The notes under the pieces: generated by a model
The model's input: only the letters and a program-made list of their open reading frames with translations
Told to the model about the DNA's origin: nothing
The model's database searches: none
Source: Symbiodinium sp. CCMP2592
Lineage: Eukaryota > Sar > Dinophyceae > Suessiales > Symbiodiniaceae
Assembly: GCA_905221615.1 (NCBI GenBank)
Contig: CAJNDT010005813.1
Location: 67,501 to 131,500, forward strand
DNA length: 64,000 nt
Direction of reading: 5' to 3'
Position numbers and translations under genes: made by a program
In this document: positions 21,918 through 59,899 of the stretch, one piece after another
How the letters are laid out: each line of letters opens with the position of its first letter
How positions within the stretch are numbered: the first letter of the stretch is position 1

Positions 21918-22114
21918 GGCTCGGGTTTCGGTCCTTCCTCCGTAGGAGGGAAGTCCCTACACCCTACTCGACTTCACGGTTCCGGGTTCTCCGTAAGAGG
22001 CACCCTTCCCCGATCCGTCTGGTCAGACCTTAGTTGTTCCTTAGTTGGGGCTGTCTAATAGCCCCTTCATCAGCGTCTACACACTGATGTTGCTGCCATG
22101 CAATGTCCTCAGAT

Positions 22115-26577: not shown

Positions 26578-29500
26578 GCTTCCGGAGAATAAGAATGGAT
26601 AGGTCGCCGTGTAGGAAGAGTTCGTCGACCATCACTTCGGATCTTGTACGGAACTCCCCTTTTGTCGATCTTGCAAGCTTCACCGTCATCGGTAAGATAT
26701 ACAATGCCGTCTCCTTTCTTCCCCGTACTCCAATGTTCAATCTCCTCGGGAGCCAACTTCTTTTCTTTCAAGATCTTGATAATCTCTCCAGGTTCTTCGA
26801 TGTCTCCTTCGGGGATGAGTCTACCGGTTGGACCGACTTCGCGGGGCGATCGTCGATCTTTCCCAGTGACCTTTGGTTCAGAAGGAGGCGGTGCTGCACG
26901 TAGACCTAGCTCTTCGTCTAGTTCTTCGAGTCTTTTGTCTCCTATGGCATCAATAGCTTCATGCTCTGCTGACTTGAAGACTTCGCCGAGCGGCTCCGCC
27001 TCAATGTCAGATGGATCTATGTCCTGTAAGTCAGGATCTTCTCCGGGATCCGGTGGAGGAAGAAGTCCGCTTGGATCATCGTCATCCCCGTCGTCACCAT
27101 CTCCTCCAGGCGGACCGTCGCCACCGTCATCGACGTCTTTTATCTCCTTGCCAGCGAGGTCGACGTTGTCCCTGAGTCCTTCAATGGTTGAGTTCATCCT
27201 TTCGTACTCGGCTTTCAGGGGAAACGTTATCTCCTCTGGGAAGTAGATAACTTCTGTCTCGTACGGTCTCATCAACTTCCTGGGAACAGATGCGTCCATC
27301 GACAAGTTCGCGTTGGCAAATTCCTTCATATCCCAAACACGATACTTCTTGGACCATCCTTGACCAGCAGTGATGATGTATCCGGCGAAAATGCCTGGAA
27401 TCCCCTTTGGATCGAACTTGTTGCCGTATGTCTTCGGCCTTGTGTCCGTCGGCTTGAAGAAGACTTTGGCACCAAAGGGTATGGCTTTTCCCTCGAAGTC
27501 CTTTCCAGTCATTCGCTTCCATGCTGAATCACCGTCGCCCTCCACGTCTTCAACGTTGAGGTTCTGCATCACGCAATTAAGCGCAAAGGACCAGTATTGA
27601 GCGGGTAATCCGGCGTGTAGCATGGATGCTGCAACTGTGTTGATCACTTCTTGATTTGATCGTTCAGCGAGTGAATTGTTACTGGGTTTCCCTGGAAGGG
27701 AATGATCGATCACGATCTTCAACTGTGCCATAGCTGAATCGAACTCTGGTGCTTCATCGCTGTACGCCATATGAATCTTGCGTCTTCCCATGAGGCGTCT
27801 GATGGCCATGACGACTTCGTCAGTGCTCCTTGAAGCCGTGGGAATCGCTGCAATCATTTTGGTGGCGATGTCCCTGATGACTAGAACTTCACGTGCTCCG
27901 TCATCGAGTCCAATACCTGCTTCGGCGGCCTTGCGCATGTCAAGGAAGTCGAACGTCACAAGATCTCCCCAGTGTTTGATCACACGTTGAAATGCACCTC
28001 GTTGCGTTCGCAAGTGCTTCATCTTCGCGCGTATGCACGATTCGCAATATGGATTGCGGTAGCGATGAGTACACAGATGTGCCAATGTCTTTGCTTCGGC
28101 TTTCAGTGTTCCGACTCTGGCCTTGCGGCTCGGCGCACCGTCGCCTTCCACATCAATGATCACCTCATCGTCACCATCCAATGGAATTTCACCCACTCCT
28201 TTTCCTTCGTCGTCGTCCGGAGGGCGTCCGGCCTCGGACTCTGGTACTTCTTCTATAGGAGGTTCTTGGGGTTCAGGATCAGGAGGTCGTTCATGATCAT
28301 CACCTTCTTCTTCTGCTTCGATCTCGCTCGGTGCAGCTTCAGCGGCAGCTGCGACGCTGACGTCAACATTGCCTGCTGTCAACGCACCCTTGAAGATTTC
28401 GGTGATCGCTTTGGCCTCCGGATCATCATGAACCAATGACTTGGAACTCCCAGCACGGACGTACGGGATGTCACCGTTCACGAACAGAGATATTCTCTTG
28501 CCCTGCGGGTTGATCATGAATGGTTCCCTTCCGGGAGGCCACACAAACCCGTAGTTGAAGTTCATACATCTCTTGCCTATGGAAAGCACCGACGGCGTGT
28601 CGTCCAACACATAAGCGTTGATCGGTTCCTCGAACGACTCAGTCTGGAAGTTCGACACGAGATCGGTATCGGTGATTCCATTGGCTGTCTGAAATGATAT
28701 GGGCTCTGGAGTCACGAGTGTCTCGAGACTGTGCTTCTCGATCTTCTTCTGAGATATGAGGTCATGACCACATCCAGTGTCCATGAGAAACTTGATCTTC
28801 TTCTTAAGGATGACTGGTTGAACCATGCATTTGAATAAGCCTTGATTGATGATCCGTTTGCTGTGTGCAGCGTCGAGCTCGCGTTCAACGATGGAATCCT
28901 CACCGTCATAGAACGAAACTTCTTCCACTCGAGACGTTCCTGGGATTCGTACGAATGAAACTCGATCTCCGCGTTGATCATCACCATCGTCAACCATGTC
29001 TCTCATGATCTGTGCCCTCAATCTCGCTTTGTGCTTGGCGAACTCCAAGCTCACAGCGCGATCCTCATCATTGACAAACGCTTCCATGTCGACGTACTTC
29101 ACCTTCCGCTCTTTGTCTTTCTTCGATCGTCTCGGACACGAAGAAATGAACTTCACGTCATTGGCAAATGTCACATTGCGCTTTGTCACTTTTCGGGTCG
29201 ACGTAGTCGTTCCCGAGGATTCGTCATCTGTTGAACAATCCGAATCAGCGTCGCTGTCAACGGATGGACAATCTGACTCCTCCTCATCTTGTCTTGAAGA
29301 TCGCTTCCATATAGCCGGAGCTGATGGATTCCACCTTCGACACAATCTGATGGCGGGTGCCGCAGGGAGTGCCTTGGCCTTGGCATTCGGCTTCGCTGGA
29401 GCTGCCTTCGCTTCGGATTTAGCTTTAGCTTTTGCCTTTGGTTCCGGAGCTGGGGTAGCTGCTGCCTCATGCTTGAAAGGACAATTCTCTCTTGAGCACG

Positions 29501-32500
29501 AGCCTGTGTTCTTGAACGAGTAGCAAATCCTGTTTCCTCCTCCTCCAGATGGACTTGGAGTTCTCGTCCTCGGTGTGAAGGGTCGTTCTGGAGTCTTCTT
29601 CGAGTGACTGAACGGACACTTGTCGCCATTTCGACACCCTGCATCTGTTAAATGGAACTTGCAGCGGATTTGCTTCTTGCTTTTGTCACCTCTGTTGTCC
29701 GCTGACTCACTCCTCGTCTTCTTCTTGGGCTTCGGCTTGGTCTTCGCATGACTCTTCGCTTTGCTTTGAGGTAGTACAGGTGTTGCTTTGTCCGGCTTGG
29801 TCGGCGAAGCCTTGACCTTTGCGGATGGAGCTGCGGTAGGCGTAGGTTTCTCAGGTACCTTGGCCGGTGCAGCCAGCAAATCCTTGCCCTCAAGCATCTG
29901 GCGCAAGCCAATTTGAGTCTGAGTGAGATTTGACTGTTCTCGTTTCCGCATGATGGTACGATCAATGATCTTCATCAGGTTGTCGTACGATCGCTCTTCA
30001 TGATTGTAGGGCAGGTGCTCATAGTGCATGCCCAAGTCCATTTTCATTGCGGGCGAGTCCTTGATCTTGCTGTACAAGCAATCACGGAGAGCTGTTTTGG
30101 ATGGAATGTCCTCTGGTCTCATCCGTCCCAGAACTTCCAACCACGTCTGCTTGAACGTATGAAGCTTGTTGTCGCCTTGGTACTGGAGCTTCACCAAATA
30201 CTCAAGAGTGATGATCATGTCAAGACGATCATGCGTTCGAAAACTTTCGTACATCATCGCGATGACTTGTCGTCCTTTGATGATCTTCACGTCAGGCCTG
30301 CTGATGTAATCGTTGGCCTTCCGGTTCACCTCGAGGTACAGGTCAGCTGATTTGTCACCACCGGCACGTAGCATTGCGACCATGGCGATCCCCAATTTGA
30401 CGTCTATGCTCTTGAACTTCTTGTGTCCTGAATCATTCAATGCTTCGACCTCAGGGAATGGGTTGAACGCTGGTGCCAGCCATAACATCCAGTCCTCATG
30501 ATGTGGGTCGGCTGATGCCCCTAAGACATTTGCCGTGCACACAGATCGCCAGTTGTTGAGATGAGTGAGAGTAGGCCATGGAGGAACAGTAACTTTGTCG
30601 GCTTCCCTCCTGGAAATTCTCACCTCTGTGACGTCAGGATCCGCATCTCCATCAGGATCACGCGCATGCGAACCAGGATCCGATTCGGGTTTGCCCCCTC
30701 CACCTTTCTTCTTGTCATCATCGTCGTCAGGCGGATCTGGAGGATCATACCCCGTGCCGGTACCTTCATCATGCTCTTCCTCTCCATTCTCGTCGCCAGC
30801 TTCGTCACCGTCATCGTCTCCATTGTTTTCTTGAATCGTTTCAGCGAATAATCTCCACTCATCACGATCAGCTCTGAGACGTTGTTCGGCTTTCTGAGCC
30901 TTGAGTACTCCACTACGCAGATCAGCAATCTTCTCCTCGTACTGTTCCGCGATCTCTTTCTCGATCTGACGCCTCCTTGCCTCATGGATGGAATCGTCAT
31001 AGGCGACAGGGGGCCCAACGAGGTCGTTGCCCTTAGTAGATGCGGTGACACCGTCGATGCCAACAGGTCTTGAGGAGCTGGCGGATGCTGTGGACTTCGA
31101 TCCCAACATCCCGCGATCCCCCAAGAGTTCGCGTAGCTGTCGATCACGCACGGTTGCCGCATCACTTTTCCCATGAAATCCGCTTGGTATGCCAAACAAC
31201 GTGGCTGCACTATGCGTGGAACGCGCAAGCGCTGGACTGCTAATACCTGGCACGTGGTGCTCGGGCATTGCATCCGCCACGATTGGCATTGAACTGCGGC
31301 CAGTGAAGAAGTTTCCACCGGTGAATGGAATTCCGTCCATCACAAGGTTCTTGTCCTTGTCGGATTCCGAGAATGCGAACTTCTCTTTGGCGACTGGACT
31401 AACTTGACTTGGGGACCGTATTTCAGGGGATCGTACCTCATCTCCTACGGAAAATGCAGGCATTACATCCTTTCCTACGTTCTCCCAGCCAGACTCAGTA
31501 GTCCTCGAAGACATGGGCATGCTCGAAGGTCGCGTCGCTTCCCTTTGAGTAGAGTTTCGCGCTGCCTCCAATTCGCTGCGTGTCCTCGCTTGAAGATCTT
31601 CTTGCGCTTTGAGCGTTTTCCTGAGTTCACTCAGCTCGTCGTGCAAGGTAGGCAGTGATCGCCTTGCATGATCTTCATTCTGATGAAGTCGTTCCTCTGC
31701 TTCTTGCATCCTCTTCACAGCCATTCTGCGGTACTCTTCCTCTTCACCAAGACGTTCACGAAGCCGAAATCGTTCTTGTTCAATGGCTGCGCTGTTTCCA
31801 GCTAGCCCTTGGATCTCGTTCACGGCCCGCAACTCCTGGTTCTTGACCAAGTGGAATCGTTCCTGCATTGCTTGTAAGGCTTGTTCCGAACTTGCTGTGT
31901 TTGATCGGAGGACCAAGTTCTCTCTGGCGTGTTCATGAAGTTCATGAGTCAGACGCTCATACTCACGTGCCATAAGCTCACCATCACCTTGCGCTCTTGC
32001 CTCCAGCTGCACAAAGTTGGTGGCTGCCTCCGTGCGGAACACGTGTAGCTGTTGAGCTAAATCCTCGGCAACGGCATGTGCTTGACGTTGTTGAGCAGAG
32101 TTCTGTTCATCCATGCGAAACAAAGCTGTTTCATAGTCTCGCTTCATCTCCTGATTGATATTGTTGATGTGCCTCATGGCTAAGCATGCATGGTCACGTT
32201 GTCGTTCCAATTCTTCAATGCGAATTCCAGATCCTTCATCTTCTTGTTGCATCTCTTTGATCTTGTCCATCAGGGTCTGCACGATTCCTTCGTATTCTTG
32301 CACCTGACTGCGATAGTACATCTGCTGTGCAAGGTTCGATGCTTCGAACTGTTGCGAAATCGTCAGCTCCTGGTAGGCATTCGGACCGTCAGCTATTGCA
32401 GGCGTGGCCACGGATGATGCATCACCACGTGCAGGAATCGTATCCAGAGTCATGTCCAGATCATCAGAATCGCGTGGTTGATTGGTAACCATCCGATTCC

Positions 32501-32915
32501 AAGTCATGGACTTGTCACGCCCACGTGTAGCCGAAGTCCTCGATCGTGCTGAAGAGCTTCTCGAAGATGATGGTCTTGACTTCTTCTCCAAGGTCTTGAC
32601 TCCTTTGTCCTTAGCCCTGGACGTAGTCCGAGGTGCCTGAAAACCAGACGCTTCGGCCCGTCGTTCTGAAGCCTTACCCGTCCTCGAACCTGTGGATGTC
32701 GGACGTGAAGGCGTAGATGCTCTTGGTAGACTCTTTGCTTTCCCCTTGGGAACTGCCTTTGCAATGGCAAGCGCAGAAGATTGACCTTTGTCATCTTCTG
32801 TGGAGCTATCAACGGATTGCACCACTGTGTCATCAGCTGTTGACTCACCAACAGCTGGCGCTGCCACATCGGCACCGAAAGTCATTGTCGTATCTTGACT
32901 TGATCCTGAGTTCAT
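26478..32915 (-). CDS. Gag-protease-integrase polyprotein of element 2
   Basis: 2145 codons starting 50 nt inside the primer site. Residues 1-170 are Ser/Lys-rich; about 180-470 form a long coiled coil (Glu/Gln/Arg-rich heptads); an acidic run precedes the gag core (about 760-1010, WPTLTHLNNWRSV). Two CCCH fingers follow near 1083 and 1130 (CX8CX5CX3H and CX7CX4CX3H), not the usual CCHC knuckle. Protease has LMDTGCGHDLIS near 1375. Integrase has HLCTHRYRNPYCESC near 1611, FDFLD (about 1655), YSDEAPEF (about 1716) and SLAERSNQE (about 1748) as the D,D,E set. An acidic/basic C-terminus ends in KKDRKKAR. Confidence 0.93.
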   Translation of the reverse strand: MNSGSSQDTTMTFGADVAAPAVGESTADDTVVQSVDSSTEDDKGQSSALAIAKAVPKGKAKSLPRASTPSRPTSTGSRTGKASERRAEASGFQAPRTTSRAKDKGVKTLEKKSRPSSSRSSSARSRTSATRGRDKSMTWNRMVTNQPRDSDDLDMTLDTIPARGDASSVATPAIADGPNAYQELTISQQFEASNLAQQMYYRSQVQEYEGIVQTLMDKIKEMQQEDEGSGIRIEELERQRDHACLAMRHINNINQEMKRDYETALFRMDEQNSAQQRQAHAVAEDLAQQLHVFRTEAATNFVQLEARAQGDGELMAREYERLTHELHEHARENLVLRSNTASSEQALQAMQERFHLVKNQELRAVNEIQGLAGNSAAIEQERFRLRERLGEEEEYRRMAVKRMQEAEERLHQNEDHARRSLPTLHDELSELRKTLKAQEDLQARTRSELEAARNSTQREATRPSSMPMSSRTTESGWENVGKDVMPAFSVGDEVRSPEIRSPSQVSPVAKEKFAFSESDKDKNLVMDGIPFTGGNFFTGRSSMPIVADAMPEHHVPGISSPALARSTHSAATLFGIPSGFHGKSDAATVRDRQLRELLGDRGMLGSKSTASASSSRPVGIDGVTASTKGNDLVGPPVAYDDSIHEARRRQIEKEIAEQYEEKIADLRSGVLKAQKAEQRLRADRDEWRLFAETIQENNGDDDGDEAGDENGEEEHDEGTGTGYDPPDPPDDDDDKKKGGGGKPESDPGSHARDPDGDADPDVTEVRISRREADKVTVPPWPTLTHLNNWRSVCTANVLGASADPHHEDWMLWLAPAFNPFPEVEALNDSGHKKFKSIDVKLGIAMVAMLRAGGDKSADLYLEVNRKANDYISRPDVKIIKGRQVIAMMYESFRTHDRLDMIITLEYLVKLQYQGDNKLHTFKQTWLEVLGRMRPEDIPSKTALRDCLYSKIKDSPAMKMDLGMHYEHLPYNHEERSYDNLMKIIDRTIMRKREQSNLTQTQIGLRQMLEGKDLLAAPAKVPEKPTPTAAPSAKVKASPTKPDKATPVLPQSKAKSHAKTKPKPKKKTRSESADNRGDKSKKQIRCKFHLTDAGCRNGDKCPFSHSKKTPERPFTPRTRTPSPSGGGGNRICYSFKNTGSCSRENCPFKHEAAATPAPEPKAKAKAKSEAKAAPAKPNAKAKALPAAPAIRLCRRWNPSAPAIWKRSSRQDEEESDCPSVDSDADSDCSTDDESSGTTTSTRKVTKRNVTFANDVKFISSCPRRSKKDKERKVKYVDMEAFVNDEDRAVSLEFAKHKARLRAQIMRDMVDDGDDQRGDRVSFVRIPGTSRVEEVSFYDGEDSIVERELDAAHSKRIINQGLFKCMVQPVILKKKIKFLMDTGCGHDLISQKKIEKHSLETLVTPEPISFQTANGITDTDLVSNFQTESFEEPINAYVLDDTPSVLSIGKRCMNFNYGFVWPPGREPFMINPQGKRISLFVNGDIPYVRAGSSKSLVHDDPEAKAITEIFKGALTAGNVDVSVAAAAEAAPSEIEAEEEGDDHERPPDPEPQEPPIEEVPESEAGRPPDDDEGKGVGEIPLDGDDEVIIDVEGDGAPSRKARVGTLKAEAKTLAHLCTHRYRNPYCESCIRAKMKHLRTQRGAFQRVIKHWGDLVTFDFLDMRKAAEAGIGLDDGAREVLVIRDIATKMIAAIPTASRSTDEVVMAIRRLMGRRKIHMAYSDEAPEFDSAMAQLKIVIDHSLPGKPSNNSLAERSNQEVINTVAASMLHAGLPAQYWSFALNCVMQNLNVEDVEGDGDSAWKRMTGKDFEGKAIPFGAKVFFKPTDTRPKTYGNKFDPKGIPGIFAGYIITAGQGWSKKYRVWDMKEFANANLSMDASVPRKLMRPYETEVIYFPEEITFPLKAEYERMNSTIEGLRDNVDLAGKEIKDVDDGGDGPPGGDGDDGDDDDPSGLLPPPDPGEDPDLQDIDPSDIEAEPLGEVFKSAEHEAIDAIGDKRLEELDEELGLRAAPPPSEPKVTGKDRRSPREVGPTGRLIPEGDIEEPGEIIKILKEKKLAPEEIEHWSTGKKGDGIVYLTDDGEACKIDKRGVPYKIRSDGRRTLPTRRPIHSYSPEAWKKMSEAEKKAAYKKEKRDKARVAKKDRKKAR

Positions 32916-32965
32916 TGTGGTCGTAGTAGATCAAGTAGTCGTTGCTGTAGAAAGGCAGAGCCGCG

Positions 32966-32979
32966 TACGGCTGATAACC
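32966..32979 (-). promoter_or_regulatory. Primer-binding site of element 2
   Basis: GGTTATCAGCCGTA on the sense strand abuts the 5' LTR, identical to the 14-mer in elements 1 and 3. It resembles the copia half-tRNA primer site. Confidence 0.8.
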
Positions 32980-33411
32980 TGCGTGGGGGATTTATCTCGA
33001 CTTGGTTGCTGCTCTCCCCACCAGAGCTGTAATGAATGTAGGTGTGGCTGGCTAGCACTCTCCACAGACTGGACCCTGTCTCTCTCTCGTACTCCCACAC
33101 GTGCGATCCTATGCAGGCAGAACCGGCGGCCGTTCCTTTTGCACTCACTGCCGGCGGCGGTTCGTCTGTGCAACGGGATAGCTCTGATGGCTCAGGATAG
33201 AAGACACATATAGCACTTAGCTATGGGCATTGACTTGAGCCAAACGTTGCGTTGGCGGTCACATAGAAAGGTAAAGACGAGGGATGCGTAGCATGCCCCC
33301 TAGAGTCGAGGGACGCGTAGCGTGCCCCCTTCTCCTGCACTTTACACGGTCTTGCTCACAGCTCTTATAGTGACACCTTAGAACTTGACAAGGCATCGCA
33401 GTCCGTTCGCA
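32980..33411 (-). repeat. 5' LTR of element 2
   Basis: 432 bp. Differences from the 3' LTR are single substitutions in the ATTGATC/ATTTATC, AATATAG/AATGTAG and CTGATTG/CTGATGG words. The word CTTGAGCCAAA is at 33234-33244. The outer end at 33411 coincides exactly with the start of the TAGC-dense block. Confidence 0.95.
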
Positions 33412-33920
33412 GATAGCATCCGAGACTTTATGCTGCACTAGCAGGAATCGAAGCTCGCTGCTTCCGAGGGCTAGCTTCTTCGCCAGAGCCTCTGCCATGG
33501 TAGCAGGCACGACGGGCCCTACGCCACCCTAGGGAAAAATTTCAAGGGAAAAATTCCTGCTAGCACATTGGGGAAAAGCTCCCAGCGTGAGAGTGTGTCC
33601 GGGAGTGCCAGTCGATAGCTTTCGCTGAAAGGGGTCGCTGCAGCAGAGAGCGGCCCTAGCAGCCCCACCGACCCCGGCCCCTTCCCCCCAAAACCCTCGA
33701 CACTCTCTCGCTCTAGCCTTCCCTTCTTTCTGGCTGCCGACATGTGTGTAGCATGACTGTAGCGCGCACACACTGGCAACTGTAGCGAGGGACGACCCTG
33801 ACTTTTGCTGCGGCTAGCGGTCGGCAGCAGAGGGCGCTGCAAGAGTAGCCGCGTGCAAAGACAAAAGTAGCGGGTGCAGGTAGCGAGGCCGGGGCCTGTA
33901 GCGAGGGAGGGCTGCCCTTT

Positions 33921-34220
33921 TTAGCGGCCGCCCCAGTCCTCCCCGCGGCTCCACTGCTTGCACCCATCACAGCAGTGAGTAGCGTGGTCGTCGCACTTGA
34001 ACCACATCCGCCTGTTACAGGCTCTTAGCGAACAGACCTCACAGGTCGTAGCGCACCTGAAAATACAGGCGTTAGCGTCCCAGTGGCCGAGGGAGTAGCG
34101 GCAGCGACCAGGCTGGTACTGCGCATAGCAGCTTGGCAACAGCATGGCCAGCAACTCGCTAGCGCGCTCCCCCTGGGGCGTGTTAGCGGGAGGGTGGGCG
34201 TAGCGACACATAAGTGCCAC
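33921..34220 (-). CDS. Cys/His-rich C-terminal segment, shifted frame
   Basis: About 95 codons with CRYSLGHWDANACIFRC, CEVCSLRAC and CDDHATHCCDGC, a density of Cys and His pointing to zinc binding. It probably continues the protein of 34025-35545, whose own last ~75 residues look like a wrong-frame reading. The frame change would lie near 34,225. I recognise no named family. Confidence 0.5.
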   Translation of the reverse strand: MALMCRYAHPPANTPQGERASELLAMLLPSCYAQYQPGRCRYSLGHWDANACIFRCATTCEVCSLRACNRRMWFKCDDHATHCCDGCKQWSRGEDWGGR

Positions 34221-35545
34221 TCCCGCCCTAGCGAGTAGAGGTGCTCTCCACTGTGGATAGCGCTCTTCAGAAGCGTGCCGTCGGCACCTTTGCCGTAGCG
34301 GGGGTTTGGCCCCTTGCCTTTCCCCTTCTCATAGCGCTGGTCCCAGGAACCCAGCGGCCACAGATCGTGGTCAATAGCGGACCACGAGAGCTCGAGGTAC
34401 CAGTAGCTCTTCCCTTTGGGAAGACTGTTAGCGTGGGCCCCCGGGGGGGGCCTGGCTCGCCCCTTTAGCGCCACACTCACTGGCGTGCCCTTAGCGTCCC
34501 GGACGTTATCGGGCATGCCCCCCGCCTGCTCGATAGCACGGTCCTGCTGGAGCTCGCGGCGTAGCAACTCCAGGTAGTCCTCGAATAGCGTGCCACGTGT
34601 AGTCGAACACATTGATTGTAGCGGCCGGCTGGCCTTGCCCTCGGCCGGCTTGCCCTTAGCGCCCTTCTCGCCTCGGCCTCGGCTCGGGCTGGTAGCGCGA
34701 GGGAACGAGGGGCTAGCGGCCCGCGGCCCGGTCTCCATGAACCTCCTAGCGGCCGACTCCGCCGGCGTAGGGTCCACGCTAGCCGGTGCCGTGGCGGCGG
34801 CGGCAGTAGCGGCCACCGGTGCAGGGTCGGCACTGCTTGTAGCGGTGGCATCTCTGGTAGCGGCCTCCTCTGCGGCCTGCAGGGAGGCTTTGCTAGCGGC
34901 CACCGCCTGCTGGTACTCCTGCTCGGCGGCCTGCTCCTCTTTAGCGAGCCGCTCCGCGGCCTCCTTCCGCTTTTGCTCTAGCGCGGCCGCTGCGACTCTC
35001 TGGTCGTGCTCGGCCTTTTTCTCTAGCGCCAGCTTAGCTGCTATGGCCTCCGCCTCCTTGCGGGCCTTGGCCTTCGCAGCGCTAGCGGCCGCGTTGGCTG
35101 CGGCGAGCTGGTCTGCTGCAGCGGCGGCCTCTGTATAGCGGCGGCCCGCGGACATAGCGGCATCCAGGCTAGCGATGTCCTCCTGGGACAGGTCGGCCCA
35201 GCTAGTAGCGGACAGAACTCGCCGCTCCATCAGGTTAGCGGGGCTCTGTTGGCGGAGCCCGGCCCCTATCCACTTCCGTGGCGGGGACTCTTTGTCTAGC
35301 ATCTCGATCGCCTCTTGGGACATAGCGATCAGCTCTTGTAGCAGAGGCTTGTCGAGGTAGCGGGGCAGCCCCTCGGCGCACTCCGACGGCCGAAACCGTA
35401 GCGCCTTCCGCAGACCACGGAGGGTCTCCGGGAGGTAGTCTCCACTAGCGGGCTCCTCTGCCGTAGCGGGGCCACCTGGTGGCCCTGCGCCCTTGGGCGC
35501 TGTAGCTCCGTTTGCCTTTTTGTCCCATAGCGGTCCCCAAGGCAC
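34025..35545 (-). CDS. Ala-rich coiled-coil protein in the TAGC block
   Basis: 506 codons with a GTG first codon, so the true start is uncertain. Residues 30-130 look globular (PETLRGLRKALRF, LLQELIAMSQEAIEML). About 140-235 are an Ala/Lys/Glu-rich helical coiled coil. About 235-310 are Ala/Pro/Thr low complexity followed by a basic Gly/Lys stretch. About 320-430 include RGTLFEDYLELLRRELQQD and KSYWYLELSW. A gag-like structural role or a host gene are both possible; no family is recognised. Part of its high Ala content comes from GCT codons inside the GCTA (TAGC complement) words. Confidence 0.55.
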   Translation of the reverse strand: MPWGPLWDKKANGATAPKGAGPPGGPATAEEPASGDYLPETLRGLRKALRFRPSECAEGLPRYLDKPLLQELIAMSQEAIEMLDKESPPRKWIGAGLRQQSPANLMERRVLSATSWADLSQEDIASLDAAMSAGRRYTEAAAAADQLAAANAAASAAKAKARKEAEAIAAKLALEKKAEHDQRVAAAALEQKRKEAAERLAKEEQAAEQEYQQAVAASKASLQAAEEAATRDATATSSADPAPVAATAAAATAPASVDPTPAESAARRFMETGPRAASPSFPRATSPSRGRGEKGAKGKPAEGKASRPLQSMCSTTRGTLFEDYLELLRRELQQDRAIEQAGGMPDNVRDAKGTPVSVALKGRARPPPGAHANSLPKGKSYWYLELSWSAIDHDLWPLGSWDQRYEKGKGKGPNPRYGKGADGTLLKSAIHSGEHLYSLGREWHLCVATPTLPLTRPRGSALASCWPCCCQAAMRSTSLVAAATPSATGTLTPVFSGALRPVRSVR

Positions 35546-36035
35546 GGATCAGGTGAAACGGCTAAAGAAAATCTAGCTACCCCAAGGTAGCGAAGCCGAA
35601 GGCTACCCGTGGGAGGAGGTTTAGCACAGTCACTGGCTCCTGCGCCTAGCTCCTTTGTAGCCCTGTTGCCTCGCGGGTGCAAAGCCCGCACATTTCGTAG
35701 CGCCTTCCTCCGCTCCTTAGCTCCTTCCTGCAAGACGGACCTGGCGCAAGCACTGGCTCCTCACCTAGCTCCTGTGTTCCCTGGGTGGCCAGAAGAGGGG
35801 TCGCCCGGCCCCGGTTTCCTAGCGCCTGCCTTCGCTCCTTGCTCCTCCTGCAAGACACTAGCGGAACACGAAAGCACAACACAGGCAACAGCAAGTGACA
35901 TGTAGCAAGAACGTGGTTCCCTCCACTCTCTTCTTTCTCCCCCCCCCCCCCTCCGCCCCCCGGCCCACAAGAAGGCCCCCACCCTCCCCCTCCCAAGCAC
36001 ACCCCCTCAAAAATTTAGCGGCGTTTCGCAAAGCA

Positions 36036-36314
<279 letters not shown>

Positions 36315-36400
36315 AGAGAGGGGAGAACAGTGGGTTCCGACCTAGCAGCAATTCTAGCCTTGGTGCGAGTGCGAGTTCGGCGGCTTAGCACGCCCTGCGC

Positions 36401-37264
36401 TCAAGGATGACTGCTAGCGGACCCCGGTGCGTGATCCTCTGGGGCCTCGTCATCTTCCGAGTTAGCGAGCGATCCTTCGCTAGCGTCTCCTTCGGAGATA
36501 GCCCCTTGGTTCGGCCAGCATAGCTTGCACACATGTGTGTACTCGTGCGGCTCCGGAACCGAATCAAAAATCCTAGCGTTGCGGAAGGCACGTCGCTTCC
36601 CCATCCAACAACCTGTAGCGCCCGCTTTGTGCAGGCGGAAAATAGCACCTGGGACCTCTACGATCACATAGCTGCCCTGGCTGCGGTCGGGAACCCTGGC
36701 CTGCTTCTTAGCGGGCCGTTCCACGACCTCTGCCGAGGCCTCGGAGCTACTCCCGGCCACTAGCGGTTCCGCGGGCTCTTCCGGTCCCTCGGGAACCTCT
36801 AGCTCTTCCGCCTCGGTCGGGACTCCTAGCAGGCCCTCCATCCAGATCTTCCGCAGCCTCGCCGCCATGTGGATAGCCTGGCTGTGGGTTAGCTTGGCCC
36901 TTTCTTCTAGCCAGGGCTCGAGGTCCGCGGCGATTTCACGCTCGTCGAGCGCCTCGTAGCGGTCGTCCCCCCTAGCTGTCTTAGCGAAGAGAGCTTGGAG
37001 ACGGGACACCCTACCCGCAAAGGATCTAGCGTACACGTCGGACCCCTCGGGTTTCCAACGCCCTAGCAGATCCTTGTCTTGCGGGGGGATCTCCTTTAGC
37101 GCCAAACCTGTTGGTAGCACCGAGCGCTCACTGTGCTCCGTCCAGTAGCCCTGGACCTCCCGTGGGTAGCCCATGATAGCCAGCAGCCCCGCGGTTGCCA
37201 CCATAGCGTCCGCATAGGTAGCCATCTTCTTCTCCAGTTGCCCCGCCCGGCCCAGCCGCGGCAT
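36401..37264 (-). CDS. Tyrosine recombinase, C-terminal catalytic half
   Basis: 287 codons. EHSERSVLP gives the H-x-x-R pair (residues 44 and 47). LLGRWKPEGSDVYARS gives the box II Trp (70) and nucleophile Tyr (78). After the catalytic domain comes a helical segment, an acidic linker, and a C-terminal Cys motif (YTHVCKLCWP). The catalytic Arg and Lys of box I are in the overlapping ORF 37096-38592 in another frame. In-frame sequence before the first Met (RYYARDYL) shows that homology runs across the break near 37,265-37,300. Such enzymes cut and rejoin DNA through a 3'-phosphotyrosine. It is Crypton- or DIRS-like; no RT accompanies it. Confidence 0.8.
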   Translation of the reverse strand: MPRLGRAGQLEKKMATYADAMVATAGLLAIMGYPREVQGYWTEHSERSVLPTGLALKEIPPQDKDLLGRWKPEGSDVYARSFAGRVSRLQALFAKTARGDDRYEALDEREIAADLEPWLEERAKLTHSQAIHMAARLRKIWMEGLLGVPTEAEELEVPEGPEEPAEPLVAGSSSEASAEVVERPAKKQARVPDRSQGSYVIVEVPGAIFRLHKAGATGCWMGKRRAFRNARIFDSVPEPHEYTHVCKLCWPNQGAISEGDASEGSLANSEDDEAPEDHAPGSASSHP

Positions 37265-38592
37265 GAGGTAATCCCGGGCGTAGTAGCGTGGGCCTTGAGG
37301 AGATCAAAGCCGGTCACCAGCCAGCTCTTAGCGACCAGAAAGGCGTGCTCCGACACCACGACCGGTAGCTCCTTGACCCTTCTCGTAGCGCCGGAAGTCT
37401 TGGTCTTCCGGAGGATGGTGGTGAGTCGCCCCTCCACCATCAACAGCTCGGCCGGCAGAATAGCCTGAAGGTCCGACCATCTTAGCGTGGCCCAGACCTT
37501 GACCAACTTAGCCCAGGCCCAGATCCGCCAGCCTGCTGCCAGAGCGGGGTTGATGACCACAAGCTCTAGCTGCACCAGCATGTAGACGGGGTAGCGGGGT
37601 GCTCTCTTGATCAAGGGAGCCCCCTCCGCTAGCTGCTCCACTATGCTGTCCTTAGCGGCCCAGACCAGGCGACCGAAGGTGGTCCTTAGCTCCACCGGAA
37701 AATCGGCCACCTTCTCCATCCAGGCGATAGCTTTAAGAATAGCTTCCGGGACCGAACGGCCGCAGGGTTCATCACTCCTAGCGAGGAGGTAATCCACCAG
37801 GTCCGCGGCGGTGCCCGGGGGCGGCCTGAGCTTAGCTGCGTGGAGCCATTGGCGCCACTGCCTGTAGTAGCTCAGGTACCTCCCCGGAAGCAACATAGCG
37901 GCCCTCACGGGGTCCAGACTCCCGTGCAGCTTAGCGAGAACAGGGGCGTGTATCTCTAGCAGCTCTTCACGGAGCTTCCTTGCCCAAACCTCTAGCAGTC
38001 GCTCCTCTCTAGCCGCACTGATCGTGCTGGGCTGTAGCGTCTTTCGGTTCCGCTCCCCGGGGCGAGGTCTTAGCGGCACCGGTGGCTGATGCACCGCGTC
38101 CTCTACCTCTTCCCTTGGAGCAGGTAGCGGTGGCATCCGGGCTCTCCAGGTGATATCGTCCTGGAAGTAGCCGTGCACCCTCTGATAGACCGTAGCTTCC
38201 TGTCGCGCTTCCTGCAGCCAACAGTAGACGCCATCCCATAGCCACGGCTGGTACGGAATACCTAGCTCTCGAGCTAGCTGCTTGGCGACATCCTCCGCAT
38301 CGTCAAGATCCACCACTGCTAGCTCCAAGACCCCAAACCCCTGGCTGGAGAGATGCCGGTAGGCCCTGTCTAGCGTGCGCCTACGTTCCTGTTGGACTGT
38401 AGCCTCCCAGCCCTCGAAGAGCACTCCCGTCTCTTCGGGCTGCGGGTCGCAAGCTGGGGTCTGCGGGACCCAGGGTACCTCCCCCAAAGCAGGGCTAATT
38501 AGCCCTGTTCCCCTTCCTACCCCCACTCGAAATTTGCCCCCCAATAGCTGGGGGCCTTGAGCCAAAATGGCCACGGAGTAGCACTGCTTCAC
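37096..38592 (-). CDS. Tyrosine recombinase, N-terminal and box I half
   Basis: 498 codons; the useful reading ends near residue 434. Residues 50-150 form an unknown N-terminal domain. About 195-330 resemble a SAM-like core-binding domain (PGRYLSYYRQWRQWLHAAKL). The catalytic domain begins near 335; VWATLRWSDLQAI gives the box I Arg (371), and ILRKTKTSG the beta-strand Lys. The first listed codons overlap a spliced-leader relic (AILAQGP is encoded by it), so they are 5' UTR; no ATG lies between it and residue 153, leaving the start unresolved. GCTA words recur through the gene without fixed codon phase. Confidence 0.8.
   Translation of the reverse strand: MKQCYSVAILAQGPQLLGGKFRVGVGRGTGLISPALGEVPWVPQTPACDPQPEETGVLFEGWEATVQQERRRTLDRAYRHLSSQGFGVLELAVVDLDDAEDVAKQLARELGIPYQPWLWDGVYCWLQEARQEATVYQRVHGYFQDDITWRARMPPLPAPREEVEDAVHQPPVPLRPRPGERNRKTLQPSTISAAREERLLEVWARKLREELLEIHAPVLAKLHGSLDPVRAAMLLPGRYLSYYRQWRQWLHAAKLRPPPGTAADLVDYLLARSDEPCGRSVPEAILKAIAWMEKVADFPVELRTTFGRLVWAAKDSIVEQLAEGAPLIKRAPRYPVYMLVQLELVVINPALAAGWRIWAWAKLVKVWATLRWSDLQAILPAELLMVEGRLTTILRKTKTSGATRRVKELPVVVSEHAFLVAKSWLVTGFDLLKAHATTPGITSCRGWAGRGNWRRRWLPMRTLWWQPRGCWLSWATHGRSRATGRSTVSARCYQQVWR
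38556..38576 (-). other. Dinoflagellate spliced-leader relic
   Basis: On the sense strand the word CCGTGGCCATTTTGGCTCAA, plus a final G, matches the conserved dinoflagellate spliced leader (CCGTAGCCATTTTGGCTCAA and G) except for one A-to-G change. It lies just upstream of the tyrosine recombinase reading frame and in the same orientation. Relics of this kind are known to arise when trans-spliced mRNAs are reverse-transcribed and reinserted. Confidence 0.85.
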
Positions 38593-38711
38593 CGGCCATG
38601 TGCAGTCACTCTAGCAAACAGACAAGCTTCGTTCTGTTTAGCTTCAGAGGAAAACCCCTTCGAAGTTTTCTAGCGAAACACCTTCGATGTTTCCCCAAAG
38701 GGATACTAGCG

Positions 38712-41700
38712 CTAGCATACACGGTCGTACCTCGTCCCTCGGTACGAGTGCAAGATACGGCCAACGTGGGCCGTTTCCCCTTTCGCCATAGCCTCGTTAG
38801 ACACATCGCGCCACTCACGCACGGATGCGTAGTCCCAACATCCTTGGTTGATGAGCTTATTCCACTCCTTGTCAAGGGCGGCTTTCGCCTTGGGATTAGC
38901 GGCACGCTCACACGCACTATAGAAGAAGACCGATGAATCGGGAGATCGGTGTGAATGAGGATCAGGGCGAACAGGCATTGCAGGTGCTGTATCAACAGCA
39001 GGACCGTCATCGGATGGTTCAACCGGTGCAGAAACATCACCTTCCACATCTTCTGCGGTGAAGTCGAGTTCAACCGCTGCCAAAACGGAAGTGTAAAACT
39101 GAACCACCGCAACGTCTTGTCCGGGCTCGACTATAATATCGTAGTCGGTAGGATTAAGGACGTCAACACCGGACTGAGTTGCCCCTTCATTGTACGTGTA
39201 CATGGCCGGGCAAACATCGAGGCCACTGCCGCGGAGCGGCTGAAGACGGGCGGACATACCACCCGGGGGCTCAAACTCAAGATCCGTAACGACACAGGCG
39301 CGAGATTTGGCAGGTACGACAGTACGGCCCTTTGCACGCAGCGCGTGTCCATAATAGCCATTCGCAGTCTGCACGCGGCGCCCCGTGTCATCGGTGTTCG
39401 GCATACGGGTTCGAACTTTAATCTGGGTTTTGGCGGAAGAACCAATAACGAAGACCGTCTTTCCCGTCCATCGGCACGGCAGAGATCGAGCATCGGATGA
39501 TCTCCATGAGTCCTGCAATGTGAACTCGGTGCCGTCAGTCATGGCCATAGTCATCCTGACATCGGTCAATGTTGCAGGATCAACGGGACAGTCTTTGACG
39601 GATGTAGGGTTGAAGCGCGCTCGGCGTTCGATCACATGAAATCGGGTGATCGTGCCAGCTGCGACATCGTGATACCAGTAATCCTTGTCATGCCGTTCGG
39701 CACCCGACTCATATTCTGAATCGTAAGCGATGTCGACAGGAGCGGCATCGCGAGAATCCTCTCGGGACATGGCATGAGACTCAGCTTCTCGGCGCTCAGC
39801 CTCGACATATCCCTCCCGTTCGGCGCGGTTCATGCTGCGCCAGGATTCTGAGTCGATAGAGTTCGGTTTTCGAGACCCTTTATATGTCCGCTCGGAACGC
39901 GGCACACTCTGACGATAAGGCAAACCCCCTTCGCCCTCCAGGATCTCTGACCCGTGAGAAGGAGGTAACTTCTTCTTGGGTGGGGCGTAGCCGTCATCAA
40001 AGAACTCAACAGTGCCGGTCCAGAGCTGCATAAGTCTCGTCTTGCCAAAGGCATACCCGGTCTCATAGATCGTAACCGGGCTTTTGTCCTTGTATTGAAC
40101 ATGCGATATACGCACCGTGCTCAGCTTCCATGGATCAGGCGACTCTCCTATGGAACCGGGAGTCTTACTGGGATGAACCATCGCTTTCCTTGGAACAACG
40201 ACGTGATACGTCCACTTATGCACAGATGGATCATACTCCCAGTAGTCAACATCTCCTCCATGAGAGGACTCTGCTCGTAATTCAGCCTCGCGAGCCTGTC
40301 GAATATCTTCATCAGTCATTCGCGTTGACTCATCAAGGGCGAAGATTTCATCGATATCTTCGAGATCGAGCATGTCGGAGGCGTCAAGACGCTCACTCGG
40401 CTTTGGCACGTTAGAATGCATCGCGGGATCGTTGATGCATACTGATCGTGTCTGTTTGTCGTACACAGCCAGCATCGGAAACGTCCATCGCTCCTTGGGT
40501 GAGCAGTATATCTTCTTGACCTGATGGACGCTTGCACGCAATGCGTCTCGCTTGAAGTCTTCAAGGTCGGCGACAATATAGTCACCGTCCCACCTGCCCC
40601 CATTCTCGAAGTGGTAACCCAGAAATACGCCGGGCTTGCTTGTGGGAGAGAACTTGCTGGGGCGCTGGTAGGATGATAAGCGTTGATCCATATCGGGTCC
40701 TTGGAGGGATCCAGATCGATCGTCATCTCCATCGTCGATCCACTCGAGATAACCATCATCATCGAATCCAACTTCGACTTCGACCAATCCATCATCTCCA
40801 GGCGCAGGTACGGCATATTCCTCACCATCGCCAAGTACGACTTCATCTTTCTGACTACGCCGGGTTTGTTTCCGTGCCGGCGTGGGATAGAAGTCAACAA
40901 GACATCCGAATGGGAGAACCTGGCCGTCAAATTCGGCACCATCAAATCGTAGCGAATACGCACTTTGTCCTTCGCGTAGCTCGATGTTGCGAGCATGACA
41001 AAAGTGCTTACACGCATAAGGCCAGAATTTGGCGCTCAGGCCCGCTTGTCGAAGCGCCACACGTGCGCCATGAAGGACAAGCTTCACCTTGCTCTCGGCA
41101 ATGGCATTAGTGCGAGGCATGCCAGGAGTGGAATGCTTTACAGAGATGCCGACTCTTTTGCAGGTCGATATGAACTCACGGGCTTTATCACAGTAGATTT
41201 CCCGGATCGCGGAAGGTGCATACCTTCTCTCCACATCCATAGAGAACGAGTTCACATCCTGAAGGTCGCCGAAGACCTGCTGGAACGCTCGAAGCGTGTC
41301 GGCATTCGTCCTCCCCTTGACGGGAACACTCTCTAACCACTCAGTTGCTAGATCGTAGAAGACAACAGCATCTGTTTCCCCATTATTCCCGCGATTGCCA
41401 AGCCCGTGCAACACCATAGTATCGATGGTGACGTGCTCGCCAAATTTCTCAAACCCTTTATCGCGTGGTGAGTCTTGGCGAAACGATTTAACGTTTTCCA
41501 TCTTTGCACGTTGGCATGCATCGCAGTAGGGATTCTTAGGTAGGTGAGTCATGAGGTGACGGATGGACTTTGCCTCCTCCCTCAGATCGCGCGCTCTCGG
41601 TTCATCGGGCGGCGACTGATGCTTAGGTTTGTTAGGCACCTTCTTGGCATCGTCAGGTGCACCTTTCTGGGCACTCTTAACACCAGGCATATCAAGATCG

Positions 41701-42599
41701 AGCTCTCCGATATCGTCTAGCTCGCCCACAGGTTCTTCACCCGCAGCCACGATTTTCTCGTGAATAATGATCGGTGCTGGGAGTGCCGGATACACACGAG
41801 GGAGATCAGGTCGACCCGCCACTACCTCGGTTTCGCTCGGAGCGAGGTAGGGGATGTTATTGATAACATCAATCTTGAGTTGTTTCCCTTTGGGGTCAAA
41901 GAATATCGGATCGCAAAAGGGTTCCCAGATAAATCGGTAGCCAAGCTCCTTGCATCGTTTCCCAAGGGAAAGAAGACTTGGTGTGCTTTCCAGCACATAA
42001 GCTTCAATCAGCTCATCGATGCCGTCAATGCGCATATGAGCAACACCTTTGGTGTTAGTTTTCCCATTGGCGGTCCTAAGGCTGATCTTAGCATTCTGAA
42101 CTATCAGATCCCTTTCCTCGCGGGACAGATCACCGAGACCAATAAGGTCTATACCGCAACCGGAGTCGAGCATAAGTCTCCGGACCCTCTTAATAGACTT
42201 GACAGCAGCAGCAAAGACCTCGCAAGCGCTCCGCTGAGAAAGCGTGAGCTCAAGAACACAAGCATCATTTCCTAGCGTTTTGGCATCAACGTCATCGAGC
42301 AAAACCTGCTCTCTCCAAAGCACAGCCTTCATGTGTGCCCTTCGCCTCTCGCGAGCACTATTCAGACCACGGATATCTTCCGGCCACGAATAGTTCAAAT
42401 TCCTCTCGCGATTGACGGGACCGAAGTTTGGCTCCGGGAAAGAAGACTCTATCACGCGGGTCTCCGTATTCCCAAACGATACTGTCTTCCGCTTGACTGA
42501 CGGACATGCCATCATATCGAATGATGCAACGCAAGCGAAGGCGAAGTCTCCATAGGAGGATGCTGTCATTGCCTGAGGGTTGCGGCACGCCCCTTTCAA
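38712..42599 (-). CDS. Pol of element 3: protease, integrase, dUTPase-like domain, RT start
   Basis: 1295 codons in the -1 frame relative to gag, entered at a TTTTTGA heptamer. Protease: RLMLDSGCGIDLIG near residue 140. Integrase: HLMTHLPKNPYCDAC near 346, then VTIDTM, YCDKAREF and NAIAESK as the D,D,E set. Acidic linkers follow. About 1080-1160 form a beta-rich domain (GRTVVPAKSRACVVTDLEF, GVDVLNPTDYDIIVEPGQDVAVVQF) with the rhythm of a dUTPase-type barrel, but the catalytic GYD motif is not clear. The end (AALDKEWNKLINQGCWDY, TAHVGRIL) matches the RT start of element 2; the last ~14 residues belong to the junction. This copy is not autonomous. Confidence 0.88.
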   Translation of the reverse strand: MKGACRNPQAMTASSYGDFAFACVASFDMMACPSVKRKTVSFGNTETRVIESSFPEPNFGPVNRERNLNYSWPEDIRGLNSARERRRAHMKAVLWREQVLLDDVDAKTLGNDACVLELTLSQRSACEVFAAAVKSIKRVRRLMLDSGCGIDLIGLGDLSREERDLIVQNAKISLRTANGKTNTKGVAHMRIDGIDELIEAYVLESTPSLLSLGKRCKELGYRFIWEPFCDPIFFDPKGKQLKIDVINNIPYLAPSETEVVAGRPDLPRVYPALPAPIIIHEKIVAAGEEPVGELDDIGELDLDMPGVKSAQKGAPDDAKKVPNKPKHQSPPDEPRARDLREEAKSIRHLMTHLPKNPYCDACQRAKMENVKSFRQDSPRDKGFEKFGEHVTIDTMVLHGLGNRGNNGETDAVVFYDLATEWLESVPVKGRTNADTLRAFQQVFGDLQDVNSFSMDVERRYAPSAIREIYCDKAREFISTCKRVGISVKHSTPGMPRTNAIAESKVKLVLHGARVALRQAGLSAKFWPYACKHFCHARNIELREGQSAYSLRFDGAEFDGQVLPFGCLVDFYPTPARKQTRRSQKDEVVLGDGEEYAVPAPGDDGLVEVEVGFDDDGYLEWIDDGDDDRSGSLQGPDMDQRLSSYQRPSKFSPTSKPGVFLGYHFENGGRWDGDYIVADLEDFKRDALRASVHQVKKIYCSPKERWTFPMLAVYDKQTRSVCINDPAMHSNVPKPSERLDASDMLDLEDIDEIFALDESTRMTDEDIRQAREAELRAESSHGGDVDYWEYDPSVHKWTYHVVVPRKAMVHPSKTPGSIGESPDPWKLSTVRISHVQYKDKSPVTIYETGYAFGKTRLMQLWTGTVEFFDDGYAPPKKKLPPSHGSEILEGEGGLPYRQSVPRSERTYKGSRKPNSIDSESWRSMNRAEREGYVEAERREAESHAMSREDSRDAAPVDIAYDSEYESGAERHDKDYWYHDVAAGTITRFHVIERRARFNPTSVKDCPVDPATLTDVRMTMAMTDGTEFTLQDSWRSSDARSLPCRWTGKTVFVIGSSAKTQIKVRTRMPNTDDTGRRVQTANGYYGHALRAKGRTVVPAKSRACVVTDLEFEPPGGMSARLQPLRGSGLDVCPAMYTYNEGATQSGVDVLNPTDYDIIVEPGQDVAVVQFYTSVLAAVELDFTAEDVEGDVSAPVEPSDDGPAVDTAPAMPVRPDPHSHRSPDSSVFFYSACERAANPKAKAALDKEWNKLINQGCWDYASVREWRDVSNEAMAKGETAHVGRILHSYRGTRYDRVC
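38725..38747. repeat. Inverted repeat at the TAGC block / element 3 junction
   Basis: TCGTACC (38725-38731) and GGTACGA (38741-38747) are perfect inverted 7-mers around a 9-nt spacer, exactly where element 3 homology stops. Geometry of short inverted arms around a 6-9 nt spacer is typical of tyrosine recombinase crossover sites. I see no second copy at the other end of the block. Confidence 0.6.
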
Positions 42600-42602
42600 A
42601 AA
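42596..42602 (-). promoter_or_regulatory. Candidate -1 frameshift site between gag and pol (element 3)
   Basis: The sense strand reads T TTT TGA in gag codon phase, ending in the gag stop. A one-base backward slip gives TTT TTG and enters the pol frame exactly. The repeated-T layout fits X XXY YYZ geometry, with the unusual feature of a stop in the A site. No downstream pseudoknot was assessed. Confidence 0.5.
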
Positions 42603-43594
42603 TCCGAGGGCGTGGGCGCCGGGCTGTCAACCCGCCTTGATGTCGGCGCGGGCTCAGCAGGCGCAGGAGCGGCGGCAGGGGTGCTCTCAGCTGGGGCACC
42701 CGGCTTCACATGCTTATAGGGACACTTGTCGCCTCTCGAGCAAGTGCCTCGTGCAAAATAGAAGCAGATACCAGACTCCTTTGAAATCGGTGACTGAGAT
42801 CGAGGCGGGAAACCCTTTGACGAGGAGCTTCTTCCCTTCAGGTTGTGGGAGAACTTGCATCCGCTTCCTCGCGTGCATCTGCCTTTCTTGAAATCGTAGC
42901 AGATTTCCCGTCCTCGCGGGGATCGCGACATCGGGCGAGTCGGTGCGGGAGCTGCTCGTCCCGGACTGCGGGAATATCGCCTTGGCGATCCGCGTCGCGG
43001 GGAGGATCGTCTGGGTGACGAGCGCCTCGGCGAGCTCCTTCGGTACGGACTCCCTCTCCTGGAGTCACTTGACCCTCTTTGACCTCGGGATGAAGATCTG
43101 CGCGGGCTGCAATGCGCAGGTGCAGCGTATCGTCTCTGCGCAGAAGTAGACCTTGTAGCGGTGTACATCTTTTCCTGATTGCGTCGTCGGCGCCAAGTTG
43201 TAATCGCATTGACGCAGACGGCTCGCAAGTATGCGTAGTTCCGTACGGATACGTCCCTGTCCCATAGCTGCATGTCGAGCTCGAGACAGCGGAACTCACG
43301 CACCTGCTCGTAAAAGAGGGCGCAGAGAACAGGATCTTCGGGGCGATCGACTGAGATACCAGCGAGAACATGATCCCACCGATTGGAGAAGGCTTCCAGC
43401 CTTTCCTGCTCGGATCCATGAGTAAACCGATCAATCGTGGTCTTCATCAGGTCAACGAGCTTGAAAGTCGAATCGCCGGTGACATGTGGTCGAAGGAAAT
43501 CATACAATAGCCACAAGATCTGCCTACTTCCGAGTCGCCGGTTTATCGTATGCATGCGCTCGGTCTCGGTCTGGATCTTATTCTTCAGTGCAAT
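42596..43594 (-). CDS. Gag C-terminal part of element 3 with two CCCH fingers
   Basis: The listed start is Met at 43555, but homology runs in from the in-frame TGA at 43595-43597 (SIALKNKIQTETERM). Residues 1-130 of the Met-initiated ORF resemble the gag core of element 2 (INRRLGSRQILWLLYDFL). An Arg/Ser-rich segment follows, then CYDFKKGRCTRGSGCKFSH near 217 and CFYFARGTCSRGDKCPYKH near 263, both CX7CX5CX3H. Such fingers usually bind single-stranded RNA, which fits genome-RNA packaging. The ORF stops at the frameshift heptamer leading into pol. Confidence 0.8.
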   Translation of the reverse strand: MALKNKIQTETERMHTINRRLGSRQILWLLYDFLRPHVTGDSTFKLVDLMKTTIDRFTHGSEQERLEAFSNRWDHVLAGISVDRPEDPVLCALFYEQVREFRCLELDMQLWDRDVSVRNYAYLRAVCVNAITTWRRRRNQEKMYTATRSTSAQRRYAAPAHCSPRRSSSRGQRGSSDSRRGSPYRRSSPRRSSPRRSSPRRGSPRRYSRSPGRAAPAPTRPMSRSPRGREICYDFKKGRCTRGSGCKFSHNLKGRSSSSKGFPPRSQSPISKESGICFYFARGTCSRGDKCPYKHVKPGAPAESTPAAAPAPAEPAPTSRRVDSPAPTPSDF

Positions 43595-51394: not shown

Positions 51395-51569
51395 TGCTAA
51401 TTTTCACTCAAACACAAGCGCCTGCGGAGTACACAAGTCAGCACATTGGGCTCAAATGAATTACGGAGCTCGCACAAATAAAACAAGTACTCAAGTAAAT
51501 ACCGGCCAGGAAAACAAATGGAAAATACGTGTACATACAGTACGAGTACAAGGCGTGCAAAGTTTTGCA
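51395..51569 (-). repeat. 3' LTR of element 4
   Basis: 175 bp, identical by eye to 59720-59894. Plus-strand ends are TGCTAATTTT and AGTTTTGCA. Confidence 0.95.
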
Positions 51570-51578
51570 CCCCGCCTA
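51570..51578 (-). promoter_or_regulatory. Polypurine tract of element 4
   Basis: The sense strand reads TAGGCGGGG immediately before the 3' LTR. It is short and interrupted by one C, so the exact primer boundary is uncertain. Confidence 0.6.
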
Positions 51579-59894: not shown

Positions 59895-59899
59895 CGATC
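59895..59899. repeat. Target-site duplication of element 4 (right)
   Basis: CGATC, identical to 51390-51394. Confidence 0.9.

Follow-up and report, generated by a model that had tools for sequence, protein, structure and literature searches.

Why does a block of dinoflagellate DNA carry the same four-letter word again and again, in one orientation, both in its genes and in the DNA between them? The block lies at positions 33412-38716 of a 64,000-nucleotide (nt) stretch of Symbiodinium sp. CCMP2592 (contig CAJNDT010005813.1, positions 67,501 to 131,500, forward strand), here called the window. An earlier note, made from the letters alone, had described the word TAGC as recurring along the plus strand of this block. 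Both genes of the block, one for a tyrosine recombinase and one for an Ala-rich protein, are on the minus strand, and the sense word is therefore GCTA, which occurs about every 33 nt. In this study, we determined the count, strand, and spacing of the word, its relation to the proteins encoded in the block, and its presence in homologs of the recombinase.

Count, Strand, and Density of the Word

The plus strand of the block contained exactly 151 TAGC, 22 GCTA, and 15 GCTAGC, in agreement with the 151 TAGC and about 20 GCTA counted by hand in the earlier note. An order-1 Markov model trained on the block, with its words left in, gave 37.0 ± 5.3 TAGC with a maximum of 51 in 300 simulations. TAGC/GCTA was the most strand-asymmetric 4-mer of the block, and 151 of the 200 TA steps in the block were inside TAGC, compared with 144 of 1825 in the flanks. 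The base before GCTA was C in 81 of 151 cases, and the base before GCT without a following A was C in 11 of 67 cases. When 4-mers were counted in windows of 2 kb over the whole 64 kb, no comparable excess was found elsewhere once simple repeats were set aside; the rest of the window showed no enrichment of TAGC except in the long terminal repeat (LTR) that adjoins the block. In the body of the left element, as in the right flank, there were 1.9-2.8 words per kb. Within the block, the density was 29.4, 26.1, and 40.3 TAGC per kb in the non-coding parts and 32.2 and 29.2 in the genes. One of the non-coding parts, downstream of the Ala-rich open reading frame (ORF), carried 18 evenly placed words in 613 nt (33412-34024, minus strand).

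Relation of the Word to Codons and Protein

Three ORF stretches were shuffled by synonymous codons, a check that had been proposed earlier. In the stretch at 34300-35545, 38 words were observed compared with 14.1 ± 2.7 in the shuffles. The corresponding values were 36 and 18.6 ± 2.8 for 37270-38592 (441 codons), and 28 and 11.4 ± 2.4 for 36401-37264, so the shuffles were exceeded in all three stretches. The word had been said to lack a fixed codon phase, and all three phases did carry GCTA in the ORFs of the block. Where Ala was followed by a residue that permits the word, GCTA was made in 28/42, 15/22, and 15/20 cases in the block ORFs, compared with 3/42, 8/85, 1/45, 6/58, and 3/66 in five flanking ORFs.

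The encoded protein was then compared with its family. Over residues 120-440 of the recombinase, the family consensus was matched at 34 of 41 residues under a word and at 155 of 195 other residues. The capacity of the recombinase protein for the word was no higher than that of 15 homologs. The shuffles, the use of all phases, the consensus match, and the equally high density in non-coding DNA support the conclusion that the GCTA pattern acts at the nucleic-acid level and not through the protein, as the earlier note had proposed.

Spacing of the Word

The mean spacing of the word within the block was 33.4 bp, excluding an AG microsatellite without the word (36040-36320). The earlier note had described the spacing as under-dispersed. 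The coefficient of variation (CV) was 0.46 in the left half and 0.48 in the right half, compared with 0.85 for random placement (0/5000 simulations in each half), and 141 of 149 gaps over the two halves were of 11-60 nt. The same was seen when only synonymously attainable sites were considered. Of these, 38/67, 36/71, and 28/45 were used in the three ORF stretches, with CVs of 0.35, 0.47, and 0.45, compared with 0.76, 0.82, and 0.76 for random subsets of attainable sites. Subsets as even as the used sites numbered 0, 0, and about 2 in 3000 simulations. In the Ala-rich stretch, every unused, non-overlapping attainable site was at most 22 nt from a used one, and the longest gap was below expectation in two of the three ORF stretches (P 0.001 each). 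The left non-coding piece was also evenly spaced (n = 18; 22/5000 simulations). No helical periodicity stood out in the spacing.

The Recombinase Unit

The recombinase ORF (37096-38592, minus strand) contains the N-terminal part of the protein and the first catalytic half. A homolog search scored 7995 candidates, namely those sharing most words with the query, and 83 database relatives were obtained at E <= 1e-3. All relatives with a named organism were from Symbiodinium (microadriaticum or pilosum), which, with the spliced-leader relic described below, points to a Symbiodiniaceae-like dinoflagellate as the probable source of the window. The ORF follows the family frame to about 37270 and is out of frame beyond. 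The remainder of the recombinase (36401-37264, minus strand), with the HSER and Tyr region and a Cys-containing tail, lies in another frame, where its translation aligns with the homologs; the copy in the window is thus frameshifted between its two halves. The family consensus keeps LRWSD, WTEHSER, and GRWKPEGSDxYAR, which we take to be the catalytic Arg, HxxR, and Tyr motifs. An AlphaFold2 model of the family member P0006 (mean predicted local distance difference test score 67, predicted template modelling score 0.46) matched Cre best among solved structures (E 1.7e-6), with Flp, XerH, and lambda Int next. The identification of a tyrosine recombinase gene by the earlier note is confirmed by this predicted Cre-like fold. 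Pfam recombinase profiles gave no match in 31 family members at E <= 1, and a search of solved structures by sequence gave no result.

The second gene is the Ala-rich ORF (34025-35545, minus strand), which looks coiled-coil-like by eye and is homologous to the C-terminal part of P0049. In P0049, a protein of S. microadriaticum, a homolog of the Ala-rich protein comes after the recombinase (E 2e-26 pairwise; 3e-18; 2e-6 for a downstream stretch in another frame). This relative was obtained via the recombinase search; a direct homolog search with the Ala-rich protein gave no result. Based on P0049 as the one relative, we took the recombinase and Ala-rich genes as one probably conserved unit. The block is a fragment of this Symbiodiniaceae unit, which consists of a Cre-fold tyrosine recombinase and an Ala-rich ORF. 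No convincing terminal inverted or split direct repeats were found in the block, from which both original ends are missing.

The Word in Homologs of the Recombinase

Since an off-frame peptide and the in-frame protein of a relative together largely fix the codons, the DNA of homologs was inferred from frameshifted proteins. A hidden Markov decoding was used, with an order-1 prior from seven flanking ORFs, and the same seven ORFs served as both prior training set and negative control. The decoding depends on gene predictions, and the relatives used are not mutually independent. A total of 85 proteins (P0002-P0086) were scanned against 17 references. With references P0002 and P0007 skipped, 38 segments scored >= 28; five in-frame segments were dropped and 33 were kept. 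Exclusion of the query's own segment left 32 stretches from 26 homologs, comprising 3,798 nt, and these homologs were 39-71% identical to the query. A run with all references kept 48 of 348 segments, included reciprocal and duplicate pairs, and was left outside the totals.

In the decoded homologs, GCTA reached 58.4 by posterior compared with 10.1 by prior, and it was rank 1 of 256 words. TAGC was not enriched (3.7 compared with 5.8; rank 164 of 256). A second prior gave 57.6 compared with 7.6 for GCTA. In a bootstrap over the 26 proteins, GCTA was rank 1 in 500/500 with a ratio of 4.8-6.8. All codon phases were raised, CGCTA was the commonest form here too, 24 of the 32 stretches were above twice the expectation, and GCTA was the top word in six of nine reference groups. 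The decoding was calibrated on known DNA. For 26 stretches of flanking ORFs, 6.5 words were decoded where the truth was 6 and the prior 6.9 (rank 130). For 21 stretches of the block, 38.5 were decoded where the truth was 91 and the prior 6.9 (rank 1). Because of this behavior on known DNA, we consider that the decoding under-reports the word and did not invent it. Confinement to a single block, as claimed by the earlier note, does not hold, since the decoded recombinase relatives carry GCTA too.

The positions of the word were also compared. Sites decoded with posterior > 0.5 numbered 61; 33 of these were attainable in the copy in the window, and 21 were used. The copy in the window used 11 of 19 attainable columns that were decoded in homologs, compared with 26 of 54 that were not (Fisher P 0.60). 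Between the genes of the block, the word-dense non-coding DNA at 35546-36039 (minus strand) contains a diverged internal duplication, in which two words were common to both copies and three were in one only. These results suggest that, as far as decoded sequence can tell, the density and the sense orientation of GCTA are a family trait and its positions turn over. A word that keeps its density and orientation while its positions shift is undergoing renewal, whether through selection or through a directed process.

Discussion

We propose, at a probability of roughly 45%, that GCTA is a selected sense-strand word that recurs every 33 nt or so and is recognized in the form GCUA on the RNA of a mobile two-gene unit. 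A word recognized on RNA is suggested because the sense orientation is locked in relatives, the spacing is even, and the density is equal within and between genes. Spread through mRNA is suggested because a spliced-leader relic is present in the block. The relic is at 38556-38576 on the minus strand, with one mismatch to a 21-nt pattern (0 expected) that we take to be the dinoflagellate spliced leader; it had been reported in the earlier note and was found again here. A leader-like start could also be read in the first residues of P0007 and, less exactly, of P0086.

Under this proposal, the unit would be a mobile element of Symbiodiniaceae-like dinoflagellates, with two genes encoding the Cre-fold tyrosine recombinase and the Ala-rich protein. 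Its sense strand would bear a selected recognition word, GCTA with a preference for CGCTA, roughly every 33 nt and with few gaps beyond about 60 nt. A nucleic-acid-binding factor may read GCUA on the RNA of the unit, loading about once per 30-35 nt. As guesses, this reader could be the second protein of the unit, the Cys-containing tail of the recombinase, or a host protein. The coating may mark the RNA for mobilization, or it may shield the RNA from splicing, decay, or silencing. A reader that marks or shields RNA would explain selection on the word. A narrower version appears rather unlikely to us: the word would be an RNA address over the whole transcript, with one stranded 4-nt word per protein footprint maintained by selection on spacing, by which a protein of the element coats and mobilizes its own RNA only. 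If true, such an address would be a cis-preference code over the entire message, largely in synonymous sites, and not a single signal.

Several results weigh against a word selected and read on RNA. Five words in 124 nt are found upstream of the leader relic (38593-38716, minus strand), outside a message that would start there. In predicted RNA structure, GCUA was no more unpaired than 4-mers of the same composition. Five of the 32 decoded stretches were at or below expectation. The P0033 reference group showed no excess of GCTA (0.9 compared with 0.9 in 459 nt), and GCTA was not the top word in the small groups P0020 (rank 8, 102 nt) and P0021 (rank 61, 63 nt). In the N-terminal recombinase ORF the longest gap was within expectation (P 0.16), and evenness was missing from the short middle non-coding piece (n = 12; 1354/5000).

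The main rival is a biased repair or copying process, which would act on the RNA, complementary DNA (cDNA), or one DNA strand of the family and create GCTA without any selected function. It is the main rival because a process that saturates with distance could give even spacing too. In the text drawn on here, the highly iterated palindrome HIP1 of cyanobacteria is modelled as the product of biased mismatch repair saturating with distance (PMC4390886). The turnover of word positions would also fit such a process. However, the bodies of the neighboring retroelements are unenriched, so the bias would have to be confined to intermediates specific to this family. The presence of the word in three phases requires synonymous changes to all four bases. 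Only about 55% of the attainable recombinase sites are in use (64/116), and coding and non-coding densities are equal although the non-coding DNA was free to fill up. We therefore regard this process as unlikely. A mutational imprint had been among the roles offered earlier and is less likely than another of them, a signal by which a mobile element is bound or oriented. The latter is the best class, and in the relatives the orientation of the word follows the sense strand of the recombinase gene (GCTA rank 1, TAGC rank 164 of 256).

Alternatively, the word could be an oriented site at the DNA level, bound by a protein on double- or single-stranded DNA during recombination or replication or in chromatin, with an orientation that agrees with the genes incidentally. 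In favor of this, the DNA recombinase of the unit has a predicted Cre-like fold, words are also present upstream of the leader relic, and even spacing would suit DNA-bound units. Sites on DNA, however, would not require the sense-strand orientation seen in the decoded relatives, no helical periodicity stood out, and known recombinase sites are few and terminal. This explanation seems to us quite unlikely. Far less probable still, and in our view very improbable, is an origin by chance through codon usage, amino-acid composition, hidden stop codons, or an assembly artefact. The Ala- and Leu-rich proteins do offer many attainable sites (67, 71, and 45), but codon use and amino-acid content as the main cause are ruled out by the shuffles, the phases, the consensus match, and the word capacity. 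The density in non-coding DNA is as high, and the word recurs in DNA decoded from database proteins of 26 homologs. Hidden stop codons are rejected as the main cause, as the base after GCTA (A or G in 79 of 151) roughly follows composition, and antisense stops are rejected in view of the depletion of TAA and TGA on the plus strand. Insertion scars are likewise rejected, as the reading frames remain open and many of the words fall on dipeptides common in homologs.

Comparison with Known Systems

The earlier note had offered HIP1 as the nearest analogy. According to the text drawn on here, HIP1 and other highly iterated palindromes of cyanobacteria resemble the block in that a short word occurs far above chance in coding and non-coding DNA, and distance saturation has been proposed for HIP1 (PMC4390886). 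GCTA, too, exceeded chance beyond codon use in both the codon-preserving shuffles and the Markov model. The same text describes HIP1 as an 8-nt palindrome of bacterial genomes, found genome-wide, for which the model levels off at about one per 1000 nt (PMC4390886). GCTA, in contrast, is a stranded, non-palindromic 4-nt word at about one per 33 nt in one eukaryotic gene family.

The periodic An/Tn clusters (PATCs) of C. elegans are likewise a short repeated sequence that runs through genes, and they are linked to escape from silencing. As described in the portion of the source drawn on, PATCs are A/T runs in non-coding DNA, whereas GCTA is stranded, contains G and C, and also fills coding sequence (PMC7725773). 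SymbioDIRS and other Symbiodinium retrotransposons are, like the unit, mobile elements of Symbiodiniaceae with a tyrosine recombinase ORF (PMC5890265). SymbioDIRS-Dnmt3 is described in excerpts of that source as having reverse transcriptase (RT) and DNMT domains flanked by repeats (PMC5890265). Pfam detected neither domain in the ORFs of the block. The excerpts do not mention a word bias for SymbioDIRS elements (PMC5890265). The three block ORFs gave no RT match to Pfam, and the RT/RNase H of DIRS elements was not found in this block, which is a fragment from which part may be lost.

The dispersed packaging signals of RNA viruses are many weak sites along the genomic RNA that are bound by coat protein and take the form of degenerate hairpins. 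GCTA differs from them in being a fixed 4-nt word, without structural preference, in a eukaryotic mobile gene family. A sequence preference of 5-hydroxymethyluracil was also considered and was unsupported; the consulted part of a paper on Breviolum minutum reports no motif (PMC11071213). Our searches of open-licence PMC papers, preprints aside, turned up no stranded tetranucleotide maintained at about one per 33 nt within and between the coding sequences of a eukaryotic gene family. If this is borne out, a mobile family would devote a large share of its synonymous sites to one short signal that follows a spacing rule of its own, and the signal would be a concrete handle on how dinoflagellates treat mobile RNA or DNA. 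The decoding of DNA from frameshifted homologous proteins could serve again in cases where protein databases are the only resource.

Edges of the Block and Surroundings in the Window

The pattern had been described as stopping sharply at both flanking retroelements, and an LTR end on the left and a broken Copia-like pol on the right account for this. The left edge is the exact end of the right LTR (32979-33411) of an LTR retroelement (13730-33411, minus strand). This LTR pairs with 13730-14162 (433 bp, 99.3% identical), and an RVT_2 match lies in ORF 25057-26577. No matching target-site duplication was found at the LTR ends of this element. The right LTR is itself moderately word-rich, with 6 TAGC and 2 GCTA in 433 bp. 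On the right, the block ends at a Copia-like pol ORF (38712-42599, minus strand) that is broken in the RT region and shows weak rve and SH3 matches; other pol ORFs in the window are homologous to it as far as about 38754, and the ORF stops at 38712. The sharp edges appear to be breakpoints because the block meets an LTR end on one side and a broken pol on the other. The original word-dense unit was probably longer than the block.

An Rfam search over 32500-39500 gave no result, and neither did searches for DNA relatives in viral_contigs and genome_contigs or a search of phage records. Where block and pol join (38725-38747), the inverted pair TCGTACC-9 nt-GGTACGA resembles a recombinase core site. 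It was set aside, as it occurs once and chance is plausible by our own estimate.

The LTR retroelement to the left of the block is 19.7 kb long and has an ORF of 2145 aa whose product carries a CCCH finger and weakly matches aspartyl protease, with RVT_2 in the next ORF. Both of its LTRs (32979-33411 and 13730-14162) are moderately rich in TAGC and hold a short tandem repeat around GCGTAGC. Beside the truncated pol on the right, the ORF at 42596-43555 has CCCH zinc fingers and is perhaps a gag-like RNA binder of the pol element. Farther to the right, an LTR element at 51395-59895 is probably recent, with 176-bp LTRs that are 100% identical and 5-bp CGATC flanks on both sides; its 2349-aa ORF had no Pfam match at E <= 0.001. 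A Copia-like element at 7885-13451 has LTR-like repeats of 224 bp (95.5%) and RVT_2 in ORF 8554-10542. Positions 1-2000 carry a dense TAGTAG simple repeat on the plus strand, and telomere-type repeats resembling CCCTAAA and TTTAGGG are scattered in both orientations over 2000-8000.

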